Assembly (NCBI GenBank): GCA_014239255.1
Contig: JAAZZE010000012.1
Coordinates: 1-43,875 of the forward strand
Origin: Gammaproteobacteria bacterium
GTDB lineage: Bacteria > Pseudomonadota > Gammaproteobacteria > Arenicellales > UBA868
Length of the DNA: 43,875 nucleotides
Direction: 5' to 3'
The translations under genes and the position numbers were made by a program. The notes under the pieces are model-generated. The model did no database searches. It had not been told where the DNA came from and worked only from the letters and a program-made list of their open reading frames with translations. This document shows positions 14,469 through 23,917 of the stretch, in pieces; positions within the stretch are counted from its first letter, which is position 1; each line of letters begins with the position of its first letter.

Positions 14469-15212
14469 CTAGGAGCGATCGGGTCCGGCGCCCGGGAGAT
14501 CCCGCGCCCACGGTGCGACATGACGGTGCTCACGCGGGATATCACGCATGTTAAGGGTCGGGCTGAAAAAAACGCCGGGCGCATGAAGTAATTTGCTGAA
14601 AGGGAATATCAGCGTCAGCGTTATCACCAATGACAGATGAATCAACAGCGGGACATCGGCCGGTAGTGGCTGCCAATCAAATGTCAGCAGTCCCAGAGTG
14701 AATGCTTTAAGTGACACGATATCGGTATGCTGAACGTATTTCATGACTAGCCCGGAACCGGCAATCGCCAGTAACAGCAATAACATCAAATGATCAGAAG
14801 GTGCACTGATGTAACGGATGCGATCAACCAGCAGTCGACGCGCCCACAGGCCCGTGAGTCCAGCAAACATCGCCATGCCTGCATAGATGCCGATCCACTG
14901 AATCATGGCCACCCACCACCATACCGGTTCGGTGAAATAACGCAGGTGCCGCGCGAGTGCGACTACCATGCCAAAGTGAAACAGCCAGCCGAAAAGCCAG
15001 GTCCACTTGCTGCCCTTGAACAGGCTCTCAAAAAACACCACCTCGCGCGCCATTCGTGCAACAACACCGGTGCGGGTTAGTGGTGCTGGCGTAGTCGGGA
15101 TCACCAATGGGGCCGGAGTCCGAGCATACCGGGTCACCCGGGCGGCCACGCCGGTTACCAATATGATGGCCGCCAGGTAAAACAAGATGGCGAAGACGGA
15201 ACCTAGCACCAA
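14469..15212 (-). CDS. dsrM: DsrM, NarI-like cytochrome b membrane subunit
   Basis: The 247-aa protein has five to six hydrophobic helices and resembles the gamma subunit of nitrate reductase (NarI). Histidines such as those in LFHFGMVVALARHLRYF and the LIHLSL segment are candidates for heme b ligands. It anchors DsrK and links to the quinone pool. The gene is separated from dsrC by a 128-bp gap with a strong stem-loop, so expression of dsrM and everything downstream may be lower than that of dsrABEFHC. Confidence 0.93.
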   Translation of the reverse strand: MVLGSVFAILFYLAAIILVTGVAARVTRYARTPAPLVIPTTPAPLTRTGVVARMAREVVFFESLFKGSKWTWLFGWLFHFGMVVALARHLRYFTEPVWWWVAMIQWIGIYAGMAMFAGLTGLWARRLLVDRIRYISAPSDHLMLLLLLAIAGSGLVMKYVQHTDIVSLKAFTLGLLTFDWQPLPADVPLLIHLSLVITLTLIFPFSKLLHAPGVFFSPTLNMRDIPREHRHVAPWARDLPGAGPDRS

Positions 15213-15275
15213 GGAAATAGGCCTCCCAGTAAATGACTCGACACTACTGACTTCTGCGCCGAGCCGGAAAATCCA

Positions 15276-15325
15276 GGGTGTGTACCTGGCCGGGCCGCCT
15301 GGCCCCGGCTATACAGGTGTCACCC
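15276..15325 (-). terminator. Strong stem-loop between dsrC and dsrM (attenuator, partial terminator or processing site)
   Basis: An extended inverted repeat starts 16 bases after the dsrC stop. The inner stem GCCGGGCC (15289-15296) pairs with GGCCCCGGC (15301-15309) around the loop GCCT, with one bulged base. The flanks ACCTG (15284-15288) and CAGGT (15314-15318) pair, and so do GGGTG (15276-15280) and CACCC (15321-15325). In minus-strand orientation the hairpin is followed only by a short run, GGATTTTCC, so termination is probably incomplete. The structure could also protect an upstream dsrABEFHC transcript. Confidence 0.75.
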
Positions 15326-15340
15326 GGGGGCGATGCGGCC

Positions 15341-15673
15341 TCAGACGCAACCGGTAGGCTTGGGCAGGCCGGCGTACTTACAGGCCTGCTTGGCTGGTCC
15401 ATAGGGAAACAACTCATACAGGTACTTGCTGTTGCCCTTGTCCTTGCCTAACTTCTTGCCAATCGCCTTGGTCAACACACGTACCGCGGGCGCAATCTGG
15501 TACTCTTCGTAATACTCGCGCAGGAAAGTGATCACTTCCCAGTGGTTCTCAGAGAGGTCACAATCATCTTCCGTGGCCATATAACCGGCCACCTCGCGAT
15601 TCCACTCACTCAGATCAGCGAGGTAACCTTCCTCGTCAGTTTCGTAGGTCCTACCGCTCAGTTCAAATGCCAT
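15341..15673 (-). CDS. dsrC: DsrC, sulfur-carrier protein with both catalytic cysteines
   Basis: The 110-aa protein is a bona fide DsrC. The flexible C-terminal arm ends KQACKYAGLPKPTGCV, with Cys98 and the penultimate Cys109 spaced by ten residues. These cysteines carry sulfur as a persulfide or trisulfide between DsrEFH, DsrAB and DsrK. The body has the winged-helix-like fold with the EYYEEYQIAPAVRVLTK segment typical of the family. It follows dsrH. A second DsrC-family gene at 22302 lacks both cysteines. Confidence 0.97.
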   Translation of the reverse strand: MAFELSGRTYETDEEGYLADLSEWNREVAGYMATEDDCDLSENHWEVITFLREYYEEYQIAPAVRVLTKAIGKKLGKDKGNSKYLYELFPYGPAKQACKYAGLPKPTGCV

Positions 15674-15705: not shown

Positions 15706-16008
15706 TCAGAGCCAACTCTGGACCTTGTCGTTGGTACAAGCCAACTCAACAAAGCCATCATAGCCGACTACCTTGATGCCGGGGATCAGCCGATCTTCTG
15801 GTAACCCCCTGGCTTTAAGATCCGGGCCAAGCGCGTAAACGCTTACCGTGCCGGTCGCTTCAGCCAGCATGGTCGTATGAATGGTTCCAGCCAATGCGCC
15901 GTAGACCCCATCCTCGATCAGCAGGATATCGCTCCCGGACTTCGCCAAGCCCAGGCAGGTCTTAAGACTCGCTGACTCAAAGGGAGATTTGTTAACAGTG
16001 TGTAACAC
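15706..16008 (-). CDS. dsrH: DsrH, sulfurtransferase complex subunit (TusB family)
   Basis: The 100-aa protein begins MLHTVNKSPFESASLKTCLG, the typical TusB/DsrH start. A segment near residues 25-40 (SDILLIEDGVYGALAG) is characteristic of the family. DsrH with DsrE and DsrF forms a hexameric (alpha2 beta2 gamma2) complex that passes sulfur to DsrC. The three genes dsrE, dsrF and dsrH run in order with short gaps and end just before dsrC. Confidence 0.93.
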   Translation of the reverse strand: MLHTVNKSPFESASLKTCLGLAKSGSDILLIEDGVYGALAGTIHTTMLAEATGTVSVYALGPDLKARGLPEDRLIPGIKVVGYDGFVELACTNDKVQSWL

Positions 16009-16025
16009 GATCTTTGCCTGCAGAA

Positions 16026-16433
16026 TCAGAAGTTAAAAACCACATCCTGCTCTTCAAGCAGGTCGGACAGTTGTGTACGACTGACAATCTGGATTGAAGG
16101 TTTTTCGGCCCAGTCATCGTCCTCGTCCTCCCAGGTCAAGGGCATCAGATCCGCTTCTGTCAGGCCCCGCTCCTCAAGAGATTCGCGTTCGACATAAAGC
16201 CTGGTGACCTCGTAATCGCCCAGCGCACGGTAAGTGGGTGAGAAATTCTTCATACCTGAATCGATCGTGTCCTGGCCCTGTTTCAACTGAAACACACCGT
16301 CACTGATGAAAACCATGCATACCTCCTGCTCAAAAGCTGCACCAATCAGCACTACTTCGAGGCCCTCCAAAGGGTAAACGGTGCCGCAGGGCGGACGACG
16401 GTTGATGTACATGAATTTCTTTGTCTCACTCAT
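16026..16433 (-). CDS. dsrF: DsrF, sulfurtransferase complex subunit (TusC family)
   Basis: The 135-aa protein begins MSETKKFMYINRRPPCGTVY and has the DsrE/DsrF-fold pattern, with ISDGVFQLKQGQDT near the middle as in TusC. It pairs with DsrE and DsrH. Its C-terminal part contains an acidic stretch (LTWEDEDDDWAEKP). It starts 9 bp after dsrE ends. The assignment follows from sequence pattern and gene order. Confidence 0.93.
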   Translation of the reverse strand: MSETKKFMYINRRPPCGTVYPLEGLEVVLIGAAFEQEVCMVFISDGVFQLKQGQDTIDSGMKNFSPTYRALGDYEVTRLYVERESLEERGLTEADLMPLTWEDEDDDWAEKPSIQIVSRTQLSDLLEEQDVVFNF

Positions 16434-16442
16434 GGCGATTCC

Positions 16443-16835
16443 CTAGTCACCAAACACCAGTAAGCGATCGGCCTGGATCCCAGCCTCAATCAACTGGCCG
16501 AGTCCGGAGATACGAAAACCCGGCGCGATGTTGTCACTGTCCTTGCCATTGCGCTTGGCCTCGTCCGGATCAACGATCCCGCGGCGCTGAGCTGCAGCCA
16601 CACAGACCACCAGATCCAGATCATGCGTGTTACTCAATTCACTCCAACGATTGACGATGTGTCTGTCGTCCTGGGGCGGCGTAGTCAACCGGGTGCCGTT
16701 ATTGACTCCATCGTGGTAAAAAAACACACGAAATATCTCGTGCCCGGCATCGAGCGCCGCAACGATGAAGTTATAAGCCGTATCAGAGGCCTGATGCGTA
16801 TAGGGCCCCTCATTCACCATGACTGCAAGTTTCAT
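16443..16835 (-). CDS. dsrE: DsrE, sulfurtransferase complex catalytic subunit (TusD family)
   Basis: The 130-aa protein begins MKLAVMVNEGPYTHQASDTA, and the central segment FRVFFYHDGVNNGTRL is the family signature. The cysteine in LDLVVCVAAAQRRGI (about residue 76) matches the persulfide-bearing cysteine of DsrE (Cys78 in Allochromatium). DsrE receives sulfur from upstream carriers such as TusA and hands it to DsrC. It starts 9 bases after dsrB ends, in the same operon. Confidence 0.94.
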   Translation of the reverse strand: MKLAVMVNEGPYTHQASDTAYNFIVAALDAGHEIFRVFFYHDGVNNGTRLTTPPQDDRHIVNRWSELSNTHDLDLVVCVAAAQRRGIVDPDEAKRNGKDSDNIAPGFRISGLGQLIEAGIQADRLLVFGD

Positions 16836-16844
16836 AGCCAGTAC

Positions 16845-17918
16845 TTAGAAACGGATATGCGTAGATGCGTTAAGACTCGGACGTGAACCACGCCAGTTAT
16901 CGATATGGAACTTGGTGAACGGTAAACCAGTTGCCTCAAAAAAGCGCGGCCAACCGATACGATCGATCCAGTCATTGATGCGCTCCCAGTCCCGTGCGTC
17001 TTCCTTATAGGCCTTCAGGATGCGCTTAACAATGGCAGTGGCTTCAGGCCAGCGCGGTGGGTTGTTAGGCACACCGGAGGCTACTAACTTTTGAAAACTT
17101 GGCTTGCTACGTGCATTGGAATGATTGCCGCCCACCCAGATCGCCAACTTGCTATGCTCAGGATCATTGATCTGCATCGGCGGACACGGTGGATAGCAGG
17201 CCCCACAGCAGATGCACTTTTTCTCATCGACCTCTAAGGTAGGCTTGCCATTGACCTGTGCTGGGCGAATCGCAGCCACCGGGCAACGTGCCACTACTGA
17301 GGGTCTTTCGCAAACGTTAGCCACCAGGTCGTGATTAATCTTCGGTGGCTTGGTATGCTGCACGTTGATAGCGATATCTCCCTGACCGCCGCAGTTAATC
17401 TGGCAGCAGGAAGTGGTGATATGGACCCGGTTGGGCATGTTACAGTTTTTGAACTCGTCAATGAGTTCATCCATCATAGCCTTGACCACGCCCGACGCGT
17501 CAGTACCGGGTATGTCACAGTGCAACCAGCCCTGAGTGTGTGCGATCATCGCCACTGAATTGGCAGTACCACCAACCACGAAGCCGGCTTCTTCCAGCGC
17601 GCTAATCAGTGGCTCGATTTTGAGCTCGTCCGCCACCATGTACTCGATGTTGCTGCGGATAGTAAACCGTACATGACCATCAGCATACTGATCACCAATG
17701 TCGCATAATGTTCTCAGGGTAAATACATCCAGAATACGCTGGGTTCCAGCCTTGACTGTCCACAGTGCGTCACCGCTTTGGGCAACGTGACGAAGCACGC
17801 CGGGACGGGGATGGTCATGCCAACGCCACTGCCCAAAGTTCTTAATCATCATCGGGTGCATATACTGGAACCCATCAGGGCAGCCCGACTCAATCGGCTG
17901 GCGCATTTCCTTAGCCAT
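16845..17918 (-). CDS. dsrB: DsrB, reverse-type dissimilatory sulfite reductase beta subunit
   Basis: The 357-aa protein has the siroheme-4Fe-4S ligand motifs of sulfite reductases (TTSCCQINCGGQGDIAI) and an inserted ferredoxin domain (CICCGACYPPC, plus the preceding CPVAAIRP). With DsrA it forms the alpha2 beta2 siroheme enzyme that, in sulfur oxidisers, works in the oxidative direction, turning DsrC-bound sulfur into sulfite or a DsrC trisulfide. The start MAKEMRQPIESGCPDGFQ is typical. The gap to dsrA is 50 bases. Confidence 0.97.
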   Translation of the reverse strand: MAKEMRQPIESGCPDGFQYMHPMMIKNFGQWRWHDHPRPGVLRHVAQSGDALWTVKAGTQRILDVFTLRTLCDIGDQYADGHVRFTIRSNIEYMVADELKIEPLISALEEAGFVVGGTANSVAMIAHTQGWLHCDIPGTDASGVVKAMMDELIDEFKNCNMPNRVHITTSCCQINCGGQGDIAINVQHTKPPKINHDLVANVCERPSVVARCPVAAIRPAQVNGKPTLEVDEKKCICCGACYPPCPPMQINDPEHSKLAIWVGGNHSNARSKPSFQKLVASGVPNNPPRWPEATAIVKRILKAYKEDARDWERINDWIDRIGWPRFFEATGLPFTKFHIDNWRGSRPSLNASTHIRF

Positions 17919-17968: not shown

Positions 17969-19237
17969 TTAACCGGCTGCTGACTGGCGATCTTCGACCT
18001 GGCGTTCAAACCATTTAACCGCTTCTTCATCCCAGCCATCCATACGCACATAAGAAGATTGGCGCGGGCTCGCAATCATGTGCGGATCAACGTCAATACC
18101 AATCCCTTCAAGGAAGTTGACCAGACCGATGCGTTCGATCATCTCACCACAGCGTTCGTGCTCAAGGCCATTTTCTGCCCAGAAATCGATAGTACTTTCC
18201 GCGATCTCGGTAATTCTCTCGTAGTCCTCTTCGGTTTCCAGCTTCATGAACGGCACGATCACCGTGCCCATCAGATCGCCGATCTTCAGCGTACGTTTTC
18301 CTCCCATTAGTACCGTTACGCCCTTGTCGTCTCCGGGCGAAAACGCCTTCGGAACAACATTGAGGCAGTGCATACAGCGCACGCAATTACGGTTGTCGAT
18401 CTCAACTGAGTCATCATCTTTGAGACTCATGCAACGGGTTGGGCAACGGGTAATGATATTGTCGATGGTGTGCTGGCGACCTTTTGTCGCAACGTAGGCT
18501 TTCCAGGCTTCCTGGTCCACCTTCATGTTATCGCGCCAGGTTCCAATTACCGCCATGTCGGCGCGCTCAATCGAATTCATGCAGTCGTTGGGACAACCTG
18601 ACACCTTGAATTTGAATTTGTACGGCAAAGCTGGACGATGCACGTCATCAGTGAAATTATTAACCAGGGTTCGGTGAATCTTGTGCTCGTTGGCGCACGA
18701 CTGTTCACAACGCGCACCGCCGACACAAGACATAGCGGTGCGCACGCAGGGGCCGGCACCACCCAAGTCAAAACCATACTCGTTGATCTCGTCAAAGAAG
18801 TGCTGGGTATTATCGGTGGTCGCACCAATAAACATGATGTTCCCGGTCTGGCCATGGAATGTCACCAGGCCCGAACCCCATTTCTCCCAGCTGTTGGCTA
18901 ACTGGCGAAGCATATCGGTGCTGTAGTGATTTCCGGCTGGCGGCTGAACCCGTAGGGTGTGAAACTCCCTGGACTCGGGGAACTGCTGGCCAACCTCCGA
19001 GAACCGCGGAATGATTCCGCCACCGTAACCGTAAACGCTAACCGTGCCTCCTTTCCAATAGCCCTTGCGGGTTTCGTAGGAGTGTTCGAGTTGGCCGAGC
19101 AAATCATTCGCCACCCCGTTAATACGATCAGTCGGATGCTCGTCACGCAGGCGCTTAATACCAGAGACAAAACTCGGCCAGGGACCACTTTCCAGTTCGT
19201 CCAGCATCGGGGTTTCATGTTGCTTGTTATCAGCCAT
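17969..19237 (-). CDS. dsrA: DsrA, reverse-type dissimilatory sulfite reductase alpha subunit
   Basis: The 422-aa protein contains the siroheme-linked cysteine set (CVRTAMSCVGGARCEQSC), the KFKVSGCPNDC segment and a ferredoxin insert (CVRCMHCLNVVP). It is the first gene of the dsr operon. A clear ribosome-binding site (CGGAG, about 9 bases before ATG) supports the start. The gene order that follows, especially dsrEFH and dsrL, marks the enzyme as the oxidative (rDsr) type. The upstream region carries a palindrome at 19439-19454. Confidence 0.97.
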   Translation of the reverse strand: MADNKQHETPMLDELESGPWPSFVSGIKRLRDEHPTDRINGVANDLLGQLEHSYETRKGYWKGGTVSVYGYGGGIIPRFSEVGQQFPESREFHTLRVQPPAGNHYSTDMLRQLANSWEKWGSGLVTFHGQTGNIMFIGATTDNTQHFFDEINEYGFDLGGAGPCVRTAMSCVGGARCEQSCANEHKIHRTLVNNFTDDVHRPALPYKFKFKVSGCPNDCMNSIERADMAVIGTWRDNMKVDQEAWKAYVATKGRQHTIDNIITRCPTRCMSLKDDDSVEIDNRNCVRCMHCLNVVPKAFSPGDDKGVTVLMGGKRTLKIGDLMGTVIVPFMKLETEEDYERITEIAESTIDFWAENGLEHERCGEMIERIGLVNFLEGIGIDVDPHMIASPRQSSYVRMDGWDEEAVKWFERQVEDRQSAAG

Positions 19238-19617: not shown

Positions 19618-20625
19618 TTGGGAGAGTTTGCGTCATCGCGTCAAAGGCTAGAATTTGGCTCCGTTCCTGCTACCCAGACGGGATACCCAGCACCTGTGCC
19701 TCTTTGCGAATCCGAAATCACCCGAGCTGCCAGAACTCAATCTGGGATACCAGCACACCTCAGGGAAGACAATTTCTCACGTTGGTGGGATGATCGTCTT
19801 GCACGATACCGGGGAGCGATTGAAGACCTTAGCGTCGAGATCGATAATCCTTTGAAACTCAGCGCTAACGAACGTCACGCCCTGGCCGCGCGGGTACGCG
19901 ATACCAACATGGCCATCTATCGATGTCGCCAACCAGGAAATGTTGACCGTGCGGCCATACAGGCGCTGACATCGCAACTGGGCCTGGGAAAACCAGACAG
20001 CAACCTGTGCGCTGCCGATGACGGCCTGAGCGAACTCGAAGTCAATCATAGCCCCACGCATCAACGCTATATTCCCTACAGCAACCGTCCGATTGGCTGG
20101 CATACTGATGGCTACTACCACACGCCAGAACGCACCATCCGAGCCATGACGCTGCATTGCGTTCGCCCGGCCATAAGCGACGGCACACTTCAGGTCATTG
20201 ATCACGAAATCGTATTTGGTCTGCTACACCGTTGTGATCCTCGATACACCATGGCGCTCAGCCAGTCAGACACAATGACCATACCGGCAAATGAAGCAGC
20301 CGGGTCTGGCGTGCGCGCCAGCGTGAGTGGACCGGTTTTTTCTCATAACGGTGATGTACTGCAAATGCGCTATAGCGCGCGCAAGCGCAACATTATCTGG
20401 AAAAACGATTCCGTTGTTCGTGAAGCCATCGCGGCACTACAGGAAATTCTGGATTCATGTGCTGAGTTGGCTGTAACCCACCGACTGTTATCTGGCGAAG
20501 GTCTGGTATGTAACAACGTGCCACATCGACGTGATGGATTTACCGACTCATCACAGCCAGAGTGTGCCCGCCTTATCTACCGCGGACGCTACACCCAGGC
20601 ACTAACTACAATGGTTTTAAGGTAA
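19618..20625 (+). CDS. TauD/TfdA-like Fe(II)/2-oxoglutarate-dependent oxygenase, substrate unknown
   Basis: The open frame encodes up to 335 aa. The iron-binding motif is complete: HxD in RPIGWHTDGYYH (His162, Asp164) and the distal histidine in CNNVPHRRDGF (His303). An arginine in RLIYRGRY could bind 2-oxoglutarate. These fit the TauD/TfdA/clavaminate synthase-like fold, although the rest does not look like taurine dioxygenase. The frame opens with TTG at 19618; a GTG at 19696 is an alternative, and neither has a strong ribosome-binding site. It is the first gene of a + strand block divergent from dsrA. It would use O2, so it is active only when oxygen is present. The substrate is unknown. 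Confidence 0.8.
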   Translation: MGEFASSRQRLEFGSVPATQTGYPAPVPLCESEITRAARTQSGIPAHLREDNFSRWWDDRLARYRGAIEDLSVEIDNPLKLSANERHALAARVRDTNMAIYRCRQPGNVDRAAIQALTSQLGLGKPDSNLCAADDGLSELEVNHSPTHQRYIPYSNRPIGWHTDGYYHTPERTIRAMTLHCVRPAISDGTLQVIDHEIVFGLLHRCDPRYTMALSQSDTMTIPANEAAGSGVRASVSGPVFSHNGDVLQMRYSARKRNIIWKNDSVVREAIAALQEILDSCAELAVTHRLLSGEGLVCNNVPHRRDGFTDSSQPECARLIYRGRYTQALTTMVLR

Positions 20626-20632
20626 ATGGCCC

Positions 20633-20845
20633 ATGCTCTGGATCAGTGAACTCATGCTGCAGAACCAGCCTATCTCTTTCGCGCATCTGATTACACTGGT
20701 GCGTGAAAAAGCACGTAGTGGCGAGTGTTTCCTACGTATGGATGTCAAACCGCCCTACCCCGACACACCGGATAACTGGGAAGACCAGATCGAGAGCGTA
20801 TTCACTGCGGCACTCGATGCCGGCACCGGCAAGACACGGCCATGA
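20633..20845 (+). CDS. Uncharacterised 70-aa protein
   Basis: I do not recognise this small protein. It starts MLWISELMLQNQPISFAHLI and reads as one or two helices followed by a proline-rich acidic part (KPPYPDTPDNWEDQ) and another helix. The start lies 7 bases after the oxygenase stop, with AAGG in front. The end overlaps the next gene by ATGA. Tight packing between two longer genes on the same strand supports a real gene that is co-translated with its neighbours. Confidence 0.65.
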   Translation: MLWISELMLQNQPISFAHLITLVREKARSGECFLRMDVKPPYPDTPDNWEDQIESVFTAALDAGTGKTRP

Positions 20846-21546
20846 AACACCTAGGGCCGGGTTTTGACCTCGGCGCTGAGTCAGGTGAAGACACTGGCGC
20901 ATCCACCGATGCGTTACAGGCACAACTTAGCGCTGTGCGCGACCGCCTAAAAGAAAGCGAGGTTGCAATCGAATCAGCACAATGGTGTGAACTGGCACTG
21001 CAGGAGAGCCGACTGCTTGTCAACCTGGACGAAGGCGCACAGGCCTGGCACAGCGCTCAACGTCGTTTCGAACAGTTTTGCGCTGGGGGACTCTGGGCGC
21101 AAGCCGCTGAAGCCACCCGGGTGATGTTCCAATCTGGTGAGCCCGATGCGCTGGTCGCACTGGGACACGCTGTCTGGCTCGCAGTCACCTTTCCTGTCGA
21201 CCCGGAGTTGTCGGTTGCCCTACTTCAGGACATTGTCGATGAGACGCCAGATGATTCAGACGGCGCAGCCGTGGCAGCAGCCACTGCCGCCTACGTCGTG
21301 GATCTTCGGGCGCAAGGTAACAAGCGTGAATCTCTGTCCTTCTTTGCCAACCAACTGCTGGGCACCGTCGCACGACGACACAGCGGCATAGAAAAACAGG
21401 AAGATTTCGAGCAATGGATTCAACGCCTGGAACTTGATGATCCAGCACAGTTCCTGCCGCGCCTACGCAATGTGGTGGACGTACTGGTACAGGATAACTG
21501 GTGGATAGATCGCGATCTCATCCAAGCCTCGCTGCCCATACAATGA
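20842..21546 (+). CDS. Uncharacterised 234-aa helical protein, possibly repeat-like
   Basis: No family is recognised. The protein has no signal peptide or membrane segment. From about residue 30 it is rich in Ala, Leu, Glu and Gln in amphipathic patterns (QLSAVRDRLKESEVAIESAQ, WAQAAEATRVMFQSGEPDAL), which suggests helical hairpins similar to TPR solenoids. It is acidic. It starts inside the end of the 70-aa gene and its stop overlaps the likely ATG of the Cas6-like gene (ATGA at 21543). Coupled translation suggests that it may form a complex with the RAMP protein, but that is an inference. Confidence 0.75.
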   Translation: MKHLGPGFDLGAESGEDTGASTDALQAQLSAVRDRLKESEVAIESAQWCELALQESRLLVNLDEGAQAWHSAQRRFEQFCAGGLWAQAAEATRVMFQSGEPDALVALGHAVWLAVTFPVDPELSVALLQDIVDETPDDSDGAAVAAATAAYVVDLRAQGNKRESLSFFANQLLGTVARRHSGIEKQEDFEQWIQRLELDDPAQFLPRLRNVVDVLVQDNWWIDRDLIQASLPIQ

Positions 21547-22262
21547 CAACAATTATGGAAACCTCCAACTATTGGCGCGAGATCCCAACCCAAGCCGTGA
21601 CACCCGATATCGATCCTGTCGTTGACCTGGTGTTTAGTATCCGTGGCCGGCAGATTCCAGCCGATCACGCATGGCCTCTGTCCGAGGCTATCACCCAGGT
21701 TCTGCCCTGGTTAGCACAGCAAGAACAAGCCGGCATTCACTTGATTCACGGGGCTCAGTCGAGCAATGGCTGGCAACAACCTCCGGACGACGGCACGATC
21801 GAACTGTCAGCCAGAACCCGCTTCGTACTGCGCATTCCCTCTGCGAGCGTGGATGCAGCCAGAGTTCTGACCGGGCAAACACTGGATATCTCGGGCTATT
21901 CCATCGACCTGTTGCAGGCCCGTGTGCGAGCGCTGCTGCCGCTCACAACGATTCTCGCACGCCATGTCCGTGCCGGGGATTCCGGCGATACTGAAAGCGC
22001 CTTTCTCGAGGACGCAGTAAACTGGCTTTCCGATCTGTCCATTACCCCACGCAAAATGCTGTGCGGTCGCGCCCATCGCTTGAACGCTCCTCAAGGTGCG
22101 ATCCTTACCCGAAGTCTGCTGTTGGCCGAACTAACGCCCAGGGAATCTACGCTTTTGCAACAACAGGGACTGGGTCAGGGGCGCCTGATGGGTTTCGGTC
22201 TATTCATGCCATACAAGAGTATTGATGCGGTATACGAGGCGCGGCCAAACATCAACGACTAG
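21543..22262 (+). CDS. Cas6/Cmx6-like RAMP-fold RNA-binding protein, no CRISPR array nearby
   Basis: The 239-aa protein resembles the Cmx6 branch of Cas6, the endoribonucleases that cut CRISPR precursor RNA. The N-terminal part has the family pattern VDLVFSIRGRQIPADHAWPL followed by VLPWL. The central part has LSARTRFVLRIPSASVDAAR and LTGQTLDISGYSIDL, and the C-terminus carries the RAMP glycine-rich loop GLGQGRLMGFGLFMPYKS. Histidines in PADHA and LIHGA are candidate catalytic residues. The ATG at 21543 overlaps the preceding stop; GTG at 21501 and ATG at 21555 are alternatives. No other cas gene and no repeat array is present in the window. The assignment rests on pattern recognition; actual nuclease activity is unknown. 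Confidence 0.78.
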   Translation: MTTIMETSNYWREIPTQAVTPDIDPVVDLVFSIRGRQIPADHAWPLSEAITQVLPWLAQQEQAGIHLIHGAQSSNGWQQPPDDGTIELSARTRFVLRIPSASVDAARVLTGQTLDISGYSIDLLQARVRALLPLTTILARHVRAGDSGDTESAFLEDAVNWLSDLSITPRKMLCGRAHRLNAPQGAILTRSLLLAELTPRESTLLQQQGLGQGRLMGFGLFMPYKSIDAVYEARPNIND

Positions 22263-22301
22263 GGAAAACTGAGTTGAGCAACATACGAAATGGAGTACGA
22301 C

Positions 22302-22640
22302 ATGCCAATTGAAGTCGATGGAAAAATAATTGCCACAACCGCGAGTGCCTTTCTCGAAGACCCTGATGAGTGGAGTAAAACAGTCGCCGAGACTATGGCA
22401 GCAGCGGAGGGACTGGAGTTGACTGCGCAGCACTGGGATGTCATCGACTATCTGCGTAAGGAATATTTCGAGAATAACGGCCATCAGCCGAATAATCGTG
22501 CCCTGCTTAAAGAGATGGGCGGACTCTGGGGACACAAAGTCAATAACAAGGAGTTGTTTGACCTTTTCCCTGGCAATCCGAGTAAGCAGGCTGGCCGTTT
22601 GTCAGGACTCCCGGAAAGCATGCGCAAAGGTGGCTACTGA
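22302..22640 (+). CDS. DsrC/TusE-family protein lacking both cysteines (RspA-like)
   Basis: The 112-aa protein follows the DsrC fold closely: MPIEVDGKIIATTASAFLED, WDVIDYLRKEYFENNGHQPN, then LFDLFPGNPSKQAGRLSGLP. In true DsrC the C-terminal arm holds two cysteines. Here the first is glycine (Gly98 in KQAGRL) and the arm ends ESMRKGGY without cysteine; the whole protein has none. It cannot carry sulfur and is likely regulatory, like the DsrC-like proteins named RspA in the literature. ATG at 22302 has GGAG six bases in front and is preferred over the ATG at 22290. It lies 39 bases after the Cas6-like gene. Confidence 0.9.
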   Translation: MPIEVDGKIIATTASAFLEDPDEWSKTVAETMAAAEGLELTAQHWDVIDYLRKEYFENNGHQPNNRALLKEMGGLWGHKVNNKELFDLFPGNPSKQAGRLSGLPESMRKGGY

Positions 22641-22709: not shown

Positions 22710-22913
22710 ATGAGCGAAAAACGAGAACTGATCCGCAAAATGATACAGATGCAGCGTGAGTTCATAGCCCAGGAACAGCAGGGTGGAATCGAGCAGAAAG
22801 ATTATTTTCTCCCAGACAATAATCAAAAACTCTCGGACTACCGTGAGTCTTATGCAAAGGTGGCCGCACGCGTTATCGATTTGGCACACGAGGAAAAAGG
22901 CTCTCGCCGCTGA
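22710..22913 (+). CDS. Uncharacterised 67-aa protein
   Basis: The small protein starts MSEKRELIRKMIQMQREFIA and contains an ELIRKMIxMQxxFI helix, an aromatic YFLPDNNQ turn and a second helix (YAKVAARVIDLAHEEKGSRR). A ribosome-binding site (CGAGG) lies about 10 bases before the ATG at 22710, so the 54-base in-frame extension upstream (ATG at 22656) is less likely. It contains no cysteine, signal or membrane segment. Its position after the DsrC-like gene suggests the same transcript. The frame continues after the TGA for 20 codons to a TAA at 22974. Confidence 0.65.
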   Translation: MSEKRELIRKMIQMQREFIAQEQQGGIEQKDYFLPDNNQKLSDYRESYAKVAARVIDLAHEEKGSRR

Positions 22914-23329: not shown

Positions 23330-23917
23330 ATGAAAACCCGAATTCGTGACCAGTGGCAAGACCCCACACGCCAGGCTTCCACTGAGGGTAATGCCTTGGC
23401 GCTGGCCTATGTCTGTTGGCAATTGGCGCTTACATCGGCACGCAATCTGCATGCTGAAGATTTTGTATACCAGGACGATATCCAGCGCGTAGGTGTCATC
23501 CGTGAGTATCTGGTGTTCTTAGCGCACACGGCTGATCGACTGGCCTTCGAGTTACTTGACGAAGCGCAGCGCGCGCCATTTATATCTTCCTTGGCAGCCG
23601 GCTGTGCCAGACATCTTCAGCGCAATACGGAGGAGATCCTGGGCGCCGGAGATTACGCTGGCCAGTTTATCGATGCCCTGAATCGACGTAATAGCGAATA
23701 TGGTCAGTGCGCCTTTGCCAACGGCACCCCGGGTTACAGCCTTCTAAGAGCGTTTGGCGAGAGTATCCAGATTATTATGGGGCACGATCAGACCAATCGC
23801 TGGGTGATTGATCAGGTGATGGACATTGACGGGCCCGAAGCAGTCGCGCAACTCGGGCGATCACTACAAAAACTCTACGCTACCCAAAAGCCTACCCCCA
23901 AAGGAGGCCAGCGCTAA
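23330..23917 (+). CDS. Uncharacterised 195-aa helical protein
   Basis: No family is recognised with confidence. The protein starts MKTRIRDQWQDPTRQASTEG and is mostly alpha-helical, with segments such as LALAYVCWQLALTSARNLHA and YLVFLAHTADRLAFELLDEA, and a later part containing FIDALNRRNSEYGQCAFANG. It has no clear signal peptide. CAGGG upstream fits the ATG at 23330 (or 23324); a TTG at 23312 is less likely. It is the last gene of the + strand block and ends 14 bases from the convergent small gene next to soxB, without a visible terminator. Its start lies about 40 bases from that of the broken minus-strand gene. Confidence 0.75.
   Translation: MKTRIRDQWQDPTRQASTEGNALALAYVCWQLALTSARNLHAEDFVYQDDIQRVGVIREYLVFLAHTADRLAFELLDEAQRAPFISSLAAGCARHLQRNTEEILGAGDYAGQFIDALNRRNSEYGQCAFANGTPGYSLLRAFGESIQIIMGHDQTNRWVIDQVMDIDGPEAVAQLGRSLQKLYATQKPTPKGGQR

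Follow-up and report, generated by a model that had tools for sequence, protein, structure and literature searches.

Our results strongly support the conclusion that a protein of the Cas6 family, whose members normally cut CRISPR RNA, is a fixed part of the dsr cluster of Gammaproteobacteria. The gene was analyzed in a stretch of 43,875 nucleotides (the window, meaning this whole piece of DNA) and in related genomes. The encoded protein is very probably a component of the dsr system and not of CRISPR. Since it is present beside dsr, without CRISPR, in nearly every sampled dsr-carrying gammaproteobacterium, a part of an immune system has apparently been taken over for this locus. This Cas6/Cmx6-family protein is a standing member of the reverse dissimilatory sulfite reductase cluster, and its gene is part of a cassette that diverges from dsrA (Table 1). 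The dsr sulfur-oxidation pathway has been under study for decades, and a search of open-access full texts returned no description of a link between a Cas6-family gene and sulfur oxidation.

Table 1. Positions of the dsr genes, the divergent cassette and selected elements in the window
Feature	Position	Strand	Basis or remark
dsrM	14469..15212	-	gene order and conservation
dsrC-dsrM intergenic region, candidate RNA substrate (putative)	15213..15340	-	MFE -55.8 kcal/mol, 128 nt
dsrC, ends GCV, both cysteines	15341..15673	-	sequence
dsrE, dsrF, dsrH	15706..16835	-	PF02635 for 16026-16433; gene order
dsrB	16845..17918	-	gene order and conservation
dsrA	17969..19237	-	TIGR02064, E 1.6e-188
TauD-like 2-oxoglutarate/Fe(II) dioxygenase, HTD...H motif	19618..20625	+	PF02668, E 4.9e-9; true start may be downstream
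Small conserved ORF, 70 aa, between TauD-like and helical genes	20633..20845	+	no family match
Helical-repeat protein, TPR-like by weak fold matches	20842..21546	+	present in about half of loci
Cas6/Cmx6-family protein, 239 aa, dsr-linked clade	21543..22262	+	family models, fold, alignment
His42 codon, N-terminal end of helix 1	21666..21668	+	alignment
Conserved loop SNGWQQP, residues 74-80, consensus GNGWxRP	21762..21782	+	alignment
DsrC-family paralogue, no C-terminal cysteines, ends RKGGY	22302..22640	+	PF04358, TIGR03342
Small conserved protein, after DsrC-like gene in most loci	22710..22913	+	neighborhood conservation
Conserved protein, about 195 aa, no Pfam/NCBIfam match	23330..23917	+	downstream cassette neighbor in many loci

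The Cas6/Cmx6-family gene lies in a cassette that diverges from dsrA

An earlier note on this DNA had recognized a Cas6/Cmx6-like protein from two motifs. Both are present in a real open reading frame, which contains VDLVFSIRGRQIPADHA and, close to its C-terminal end, GLGQGRLMGFGLF, and membership in the family was borne out by two curated models and by solved structures. PF09559 (Cas6) matched the protein with E 3e-55 and 187.6 bits, against a cut-off of 26.7, and TIGR02807 (cas6_cmx6) with 119.6 bits, against a cut-off of 98.85. When we searched with a predicted model (mean pLDDT 85, low at residues 73-77), the best structure matches were Cas6 structures. Foldseek, the comparison by which the note had proposed that the assignment could fail, thus recovered the Cas6 (RAMP) fold, with 8fcu_B at E 1.5e-15 and 8fcj_B at E 1.9e-15. 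VIA gave Z 24.7 and an rmsd of 2.3 A over 198 residues for 8fcj_B, and Z 16.9 for 5yi6_A, which is annotated as Cas6. 8fcj_B was also recovered by sequence (phmmer E 1e-9; profile E 6e-25). A viral structure library yielded weak matches only, the best being RNA-recognition motif proteins, and a caspase-1 match in a profile search of the PDB (E 0.11) was dismissed as chance.

The gene order around this protein is conserved. In a set of about 180 loci, the dsr strand typically reads dsrA-B-E-F-H-C-M-K-L. On the opposite strand, the TauD-like gene, divergent from dsrA and the first of the cassette, is followed by the optional small ORF and helical gene, then by the Cas6-like gene, the DsrC-like gene, the small-protein gene and often the gene at 23330-23917. 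H162, D164 and H303 are conserved in the TauD-like protein, so its iron site is kept. Three distant relatives (31-35% identity) depart from this order: there, the Cas6-like gene adjoins dsrA and the TauD-like gene lies downstream, with the counterpart of gene 23330-23917 between the DsrC-like and TauD-like genes.

The coupling to a helical protein and the DsrC-like follower that the earlier note had described are both evident. The Cas6-like start lies inside the stop codon of the helical gene, in a 4-base ATGA overlap (21543-21546), and the two genes touch or overlap in 61 of 80 loci. The predicted helical protein is an all-helical superhelix whose TPR-like matches are weak. Directly downstream of the Cas6-like gene in the window, the DsrC-like gene (start set at the conserved M5 of an ORF opening at 22290) matches PF04358 with E 4.5e-30. 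Although this gene product belongs to the DsrC/TusE family (PF04358/TIGR03342), it lacks the C-terminal cysteine of DsrC. This cysteine was present in 111 of 114 genuine DsrC proteins versus none of 134 DsrC-like relatives, which argues that the paralogue does not carry sulfur by the DsrC mechanism. Its RKGGY end is strongly conserved, and in most loci its gene comes after the Cas6-like gene.

The gene tracks dsrA

We determined the distribution of the gene in an even draw of 274 gammaproteobacterial genomes (class sample) and in 109 genomes of the window's order (order sample). PF09559 matched in 91 genomes of the class sample and dsrA was found in 94, with both in 87. The corresponding counts (both, gene only, dsrA only, neither) were 87/4/7/176, with a Fisher value of 1.9e-57; for the order sample, in which 62 of 109 genomes carry a relative, they were 61/1/4/43, with a Fisher value of 1.7e-24. 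These tables take no account of shared descent, but the genes nevertheless span many families. Where dsrA and the Cas6-like gene shared a contig in the class sample, 65 of 66 pairs were divergent and within 6 kb.

Eleven dsr-positive genomes from the two samples together lacked the Cas6-like gene. In seven of these, dsrA lies no more than 643 bases from a contig end; in one (G345), a 3.5-kb contig ends in a dsrA fragment, and in another (G231) the contig stops shortly past the TauD-like gene. Since dsrA is near contig ends in most of the 11 genomes, true absences number at most about three (G056, G070 and G318). Conversely, one genome that is about 90% complete (G061, locus L070) has the TauD-like, Cas6-like and downstream genes, and dsrA was not found in it.

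In a draw across the phylum, the gene was present in all four gammaproteobacterial genomes with dsrA and in none of the 48 dsrA-containing genomes from outside Gammaproteobacteria. Thus, Dsr can do without the Cas6-like protein in places. Inspection of 20 of these 48 genomes revealed a different dsr arrangement in most and the dsrEFH type in six. As a TauD-like gene adjoins dsrA in four of these six clusters (L270, L273, L274 and L275), all without the Cas6-like gene, the link between TauD-like genes and dsr is wider than that of the Cas6-like gene.

Co-occurrence would also be expected if the gene had arrived once beside dsr and was merely co-inherited by vertical descent, with no part in sulfur oxidation. 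One genome (G070) is consistent with such a passenger, as it lacks the TauD-like and Cas6-like genes and retains the helical and DsrC-like genes. However, the Cas6-like gene and its cassette are retained in small genomes of 1.0-1.1 Mb, the gene is kept in dsr-positive genomes in which dsrA is on another contig (for example f10 g25), and 15 alignment columns are invariant across 48 sequences. We therefore regard simple co-inheritance as very improbable. Conservation of the cassette reaches down to 31-36% protein identity.

The dsr-linked loci are not CRISPR loci

The window contains no direct repeats of at least 21 bases spaced within 200 bases, and hence no CRISPR array, in agreement with the earlier note. 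We also searched the window's own genome (about 89% complete) for Cas1 and Cas7/DevR and found neither, and Cas7/DevR was found in none of the 109 genomes of the order. When 2.9 Mb of loci, including 180 dsr-linked ones, was searched for homologues of Nostoc cas3, cmx8, cas7, cas5 and cas1, the dsr-linked loci yielded none, while the same search recovered cas3, cas7 and cas5 in all four cyanobacterial control loci. The only array-like elements in the related loci were two 3-copy repeats, one at a locus edge (L225) and one in L246; a control cyanobacterial locus (L204) has an array with 16 copies. The arrangement that marks type I-MYXAN, in which cas3, cas8/cmx8, cas7/DevR and cas5 are adjacent and an array is nearby, was not found in dsr-linked loci. 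Homologues confined to CRISPR arrays would have spoken against the earlier note; the gammaproteobacterial relatives instead adjoin dsr.

These data bear on whether the protein could be an orphan Cas6 acting in trans, in the processing of crRNA from arrays at other genomic sites. Although its PF09559/TIGR02807 annotation and the occurrence of cas1 in 42 of the 91 gene-bearing genomes of the class could be taken this way, the gene was not significantly associated with cas1 in the class sample (both, gene only, cas1 only, neither: 42/49/62/121; p 0.064) or in the order sample (p 1.0). Together with the missing Cas7/DevR, this led us to reject the idea. Its position beside dsrA is also fixed, the window's own genome has no cas1, and some gene-bearing genomes have no CRISPR system, making such a role extremely improbable. 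A reading of the gene as phage or plasmid cargo was likewise rejected, as relatives were absent from phage records and viral contigs, and the plasmid-borne relatives were in cyanobacterial CRISPR loci only.

The dsr-linked branch differs from its CRISPR relatives

The closest CRISPR proteins are Cas6/Cmx6 of type I-MYXAN (type I-B-like) systems, such as those of Nostoc sp. CENA543 and of Synechococcus elongatus UTEX 3055 plasmids, which belong to the same family and are 27-30% identical to the Cas6-like protein. They share its His column (as DH) and its glycine-rich C-terminal loop, which is conserved in the dsr-linked proteins as GLGxxRLxGxGLF. In contrast to the dsr-linked genes, theirs adjoin cas3, cas8/cmx8, cas7 and cas5, with cas1 in two of four loci, and the proteins are basic (pI 9.3-9.6) and lack the GNGWxRP insertion. 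The best solved structural match is Cas6 of the type I-B CRISPR-associated transposon (8fcj, 8fcu), which acts in a Cascade complex with guide RNA; it too is basic and without the insertion loop, and has Asn at the position of His42.

In a tree of 116 dereplicated dsr-linked and five CRISPR-linked sequences, the branch separating the two groups had support of 100/98. The protein appears to be a Cas6-family immune component co-opted for the dsr locus; since the root of this tree is not fixed, we infer the direction, from a CRISPR ancestor. Two papers describe cas-family genes outside CRISPR-cas loci, namely solo Cas4 and cas1-solo (PMC5704561, PMC7465815), and the likeness to these cases lies in this general idea.

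Residues common to the dsr branch and the CRISPR relatives are His42, R97, Q206, G209, G211 and G219. In some other Cas6 enzymes, the catalytic His is at the start of helix 1, and from its equivalent position His42 may be catalytic. The column is His in 168 of 173 dsr-linked proteins (including that of the window) and in all four cyanobacterial type I-MYXAN Cas6 proteins. In the remaining loci (L088, L087, L089, L084 and L078), which are retained, it is replaced by F, N or Y. Specific to the dsr branch are E151, K171, G175, R190, H224-K225 and the GNGWxRP insertion, which is absent from the five CRISPR-linked relatives and also from the three most distant members of the dsr branch itself.

The two groups also differ in charge. 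With a median pI of 6.1 and a net charge of -5, proteins of the dsr branch are acidic, in contrast to the basic CRISPR-linked relatives (pI 9.2-9.6). This shift gives the strongest indication of altered ligand or partners in the dsr branch. It makes the main rival to an RNA mechanism a protein that kept the Cas6 fold but lost RNA handling, and that makes protein contacts instead, for example in assembling or regulating DsrAB, DsrC or the cysteine-less paralogue, with the GNGWxRP loop as contact site. Such a role would also agree with the conservation of this insertion in the dsr branch, with constant genomic partners that are sulfur-metabolism proteins and with translation of the helical-repeat partner together with the Cas6-like protein. 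However, conservation of the His and of basic positions R91, R93, R97, K171, R190, R214 and K225 would be unexpected if contact with RNA had been lost, and we consider a purely protein-based role somewhat unlikely.

Hairpins recur past dsrC, dsrA and the DsrC-like gene

In a dereplicated set of up to 116 loci, we folded the 80 nucleotides past every stop codon and calculated z relative to shuffles. The mean folding z was -2.15 past dsrC, -1.31 past the DsrC-like gene and -1.17 past dsrA; at the remaining dsr junctions, it ranged from -0.14 to +0.38. Uninterrupted strong stems were present in 38% (dsrC), 25% (dsrA) and 18% (DsrC-like) of loci versus 0-2% in shuffles, and T-runs seldom accompanied them. 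Hairpin sequences vary among genomes, with stems in some groups kept by compensatory changes. As the structure recurs and the sequence differs, we rejected a hairpin sequence shared across genomes. The recurrent hairpins are compatible with an RNA element that depends on structure, for example a hairpin for processing or stabilization.

In the window's own genus, a strong hairpin past dsrA was not found, and the dsr region matched no structured RNA in Rfam. Hairpins did not distinguish a small sample of other-class clusters without the gene (p 0.30 past dsrC, n=5; p 0.13 past dsrA, n=20). Hairpins past dsrC and at dsrA-dsrB junctions may be mRNA stability elements regardless of the Cas6-like protein.

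Proteins of the Cas6/Cmx6 family characteristically cleave RNA site-specifically and leave a 3′ hairpin handle, and the enrichment of hairpins past dsrA, dsrC and the DsrC-like gene would suit an enzyme of this type. Taken together, the Cas6 fold, the hairpins and the conservation of the His are read most naturally as signs of an RNA mechanism. The Cas6-like protein would most likely act in post-transcriptional control of dsr expression, recognizing RNA hairpins of the dsr message past dsrA and past dsrC and either binding them or cutting beside them. Upstream products such as DsrC would then accumulate differently from downstream products, and the cassette partners might sense sulfur or oxygen state and thereby tune the action of the protein.

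We hold this proposal as a whole, a Cas6/Cmx6 member of the dsr cluster with a post-transcriptional RNA mechanism, only tentatively and put it below an even chance. A fuller version, in which a Cas6-type ribonuclease outside CRISPR cuts hairpins past dsrA and dsrC, sets the proportions of DsrC, DsrAB and DsrMK and is controlled by the 2-oxoglutarate/oxygen-dependent dioxygenase and the cysteine-less DsrC paralogue, is unlikely to hold in every part. The acidic charge argues against simple RNA binding, the His is missing in five of 173 dsr-linked proteins, and the hairpins are variable in sequence and perfect in under half of loci. Thus, of the earlier suggestion of a domesticated RNA protein acting on dsr mRNA, co-option for the dsr locus is well supported by the fold, the linkage to dsr and the lack of CRISPR, while RNA processing or binding and the dsr message as target are only suggested, by the kept His and the hairpins and contrary to the acidic pI.

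The target could instead be a structural RNA, for example in a tRNA modification tied to sulfur supply that involves a Tus-like relay and the TauD-like dioxygenase. DsrEFH and DsrC are homologues of TusBCD and TusE, the sulfur relay for tRNA 2-thiolation, so the neighbors of the gene would fit; known members of the Cas6 fold bind RNA, and most cassettes contain the TauD-like gene. Nonetheless, all 134 DsrC-like partners lack the sulfur-carrying C-terminal cysteine, the gene tracks dsrA and we saw no link to tRNA, leaving a structural RNA an improbable target.

If the protein acts on RNA, as in the mechanism that we prefer, a Cas6-family enzyme would have been recruited into energy metabolism and would give the dsr cluster a new layer of control. 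Otherwise, a CRISPR fold would have been put to a new, protein-based use. In both cases, the protein is a near-universal and apparently undescribed part of the dsr pathway. Nearly all gammaproteobacterial PF09559 matches in the samples searched were the dsr-linked protein. Many sulfur oxidizers are therefore credited by automatic annotation with a CRISPR component on the strength of a gene unrelated to CRISPR.
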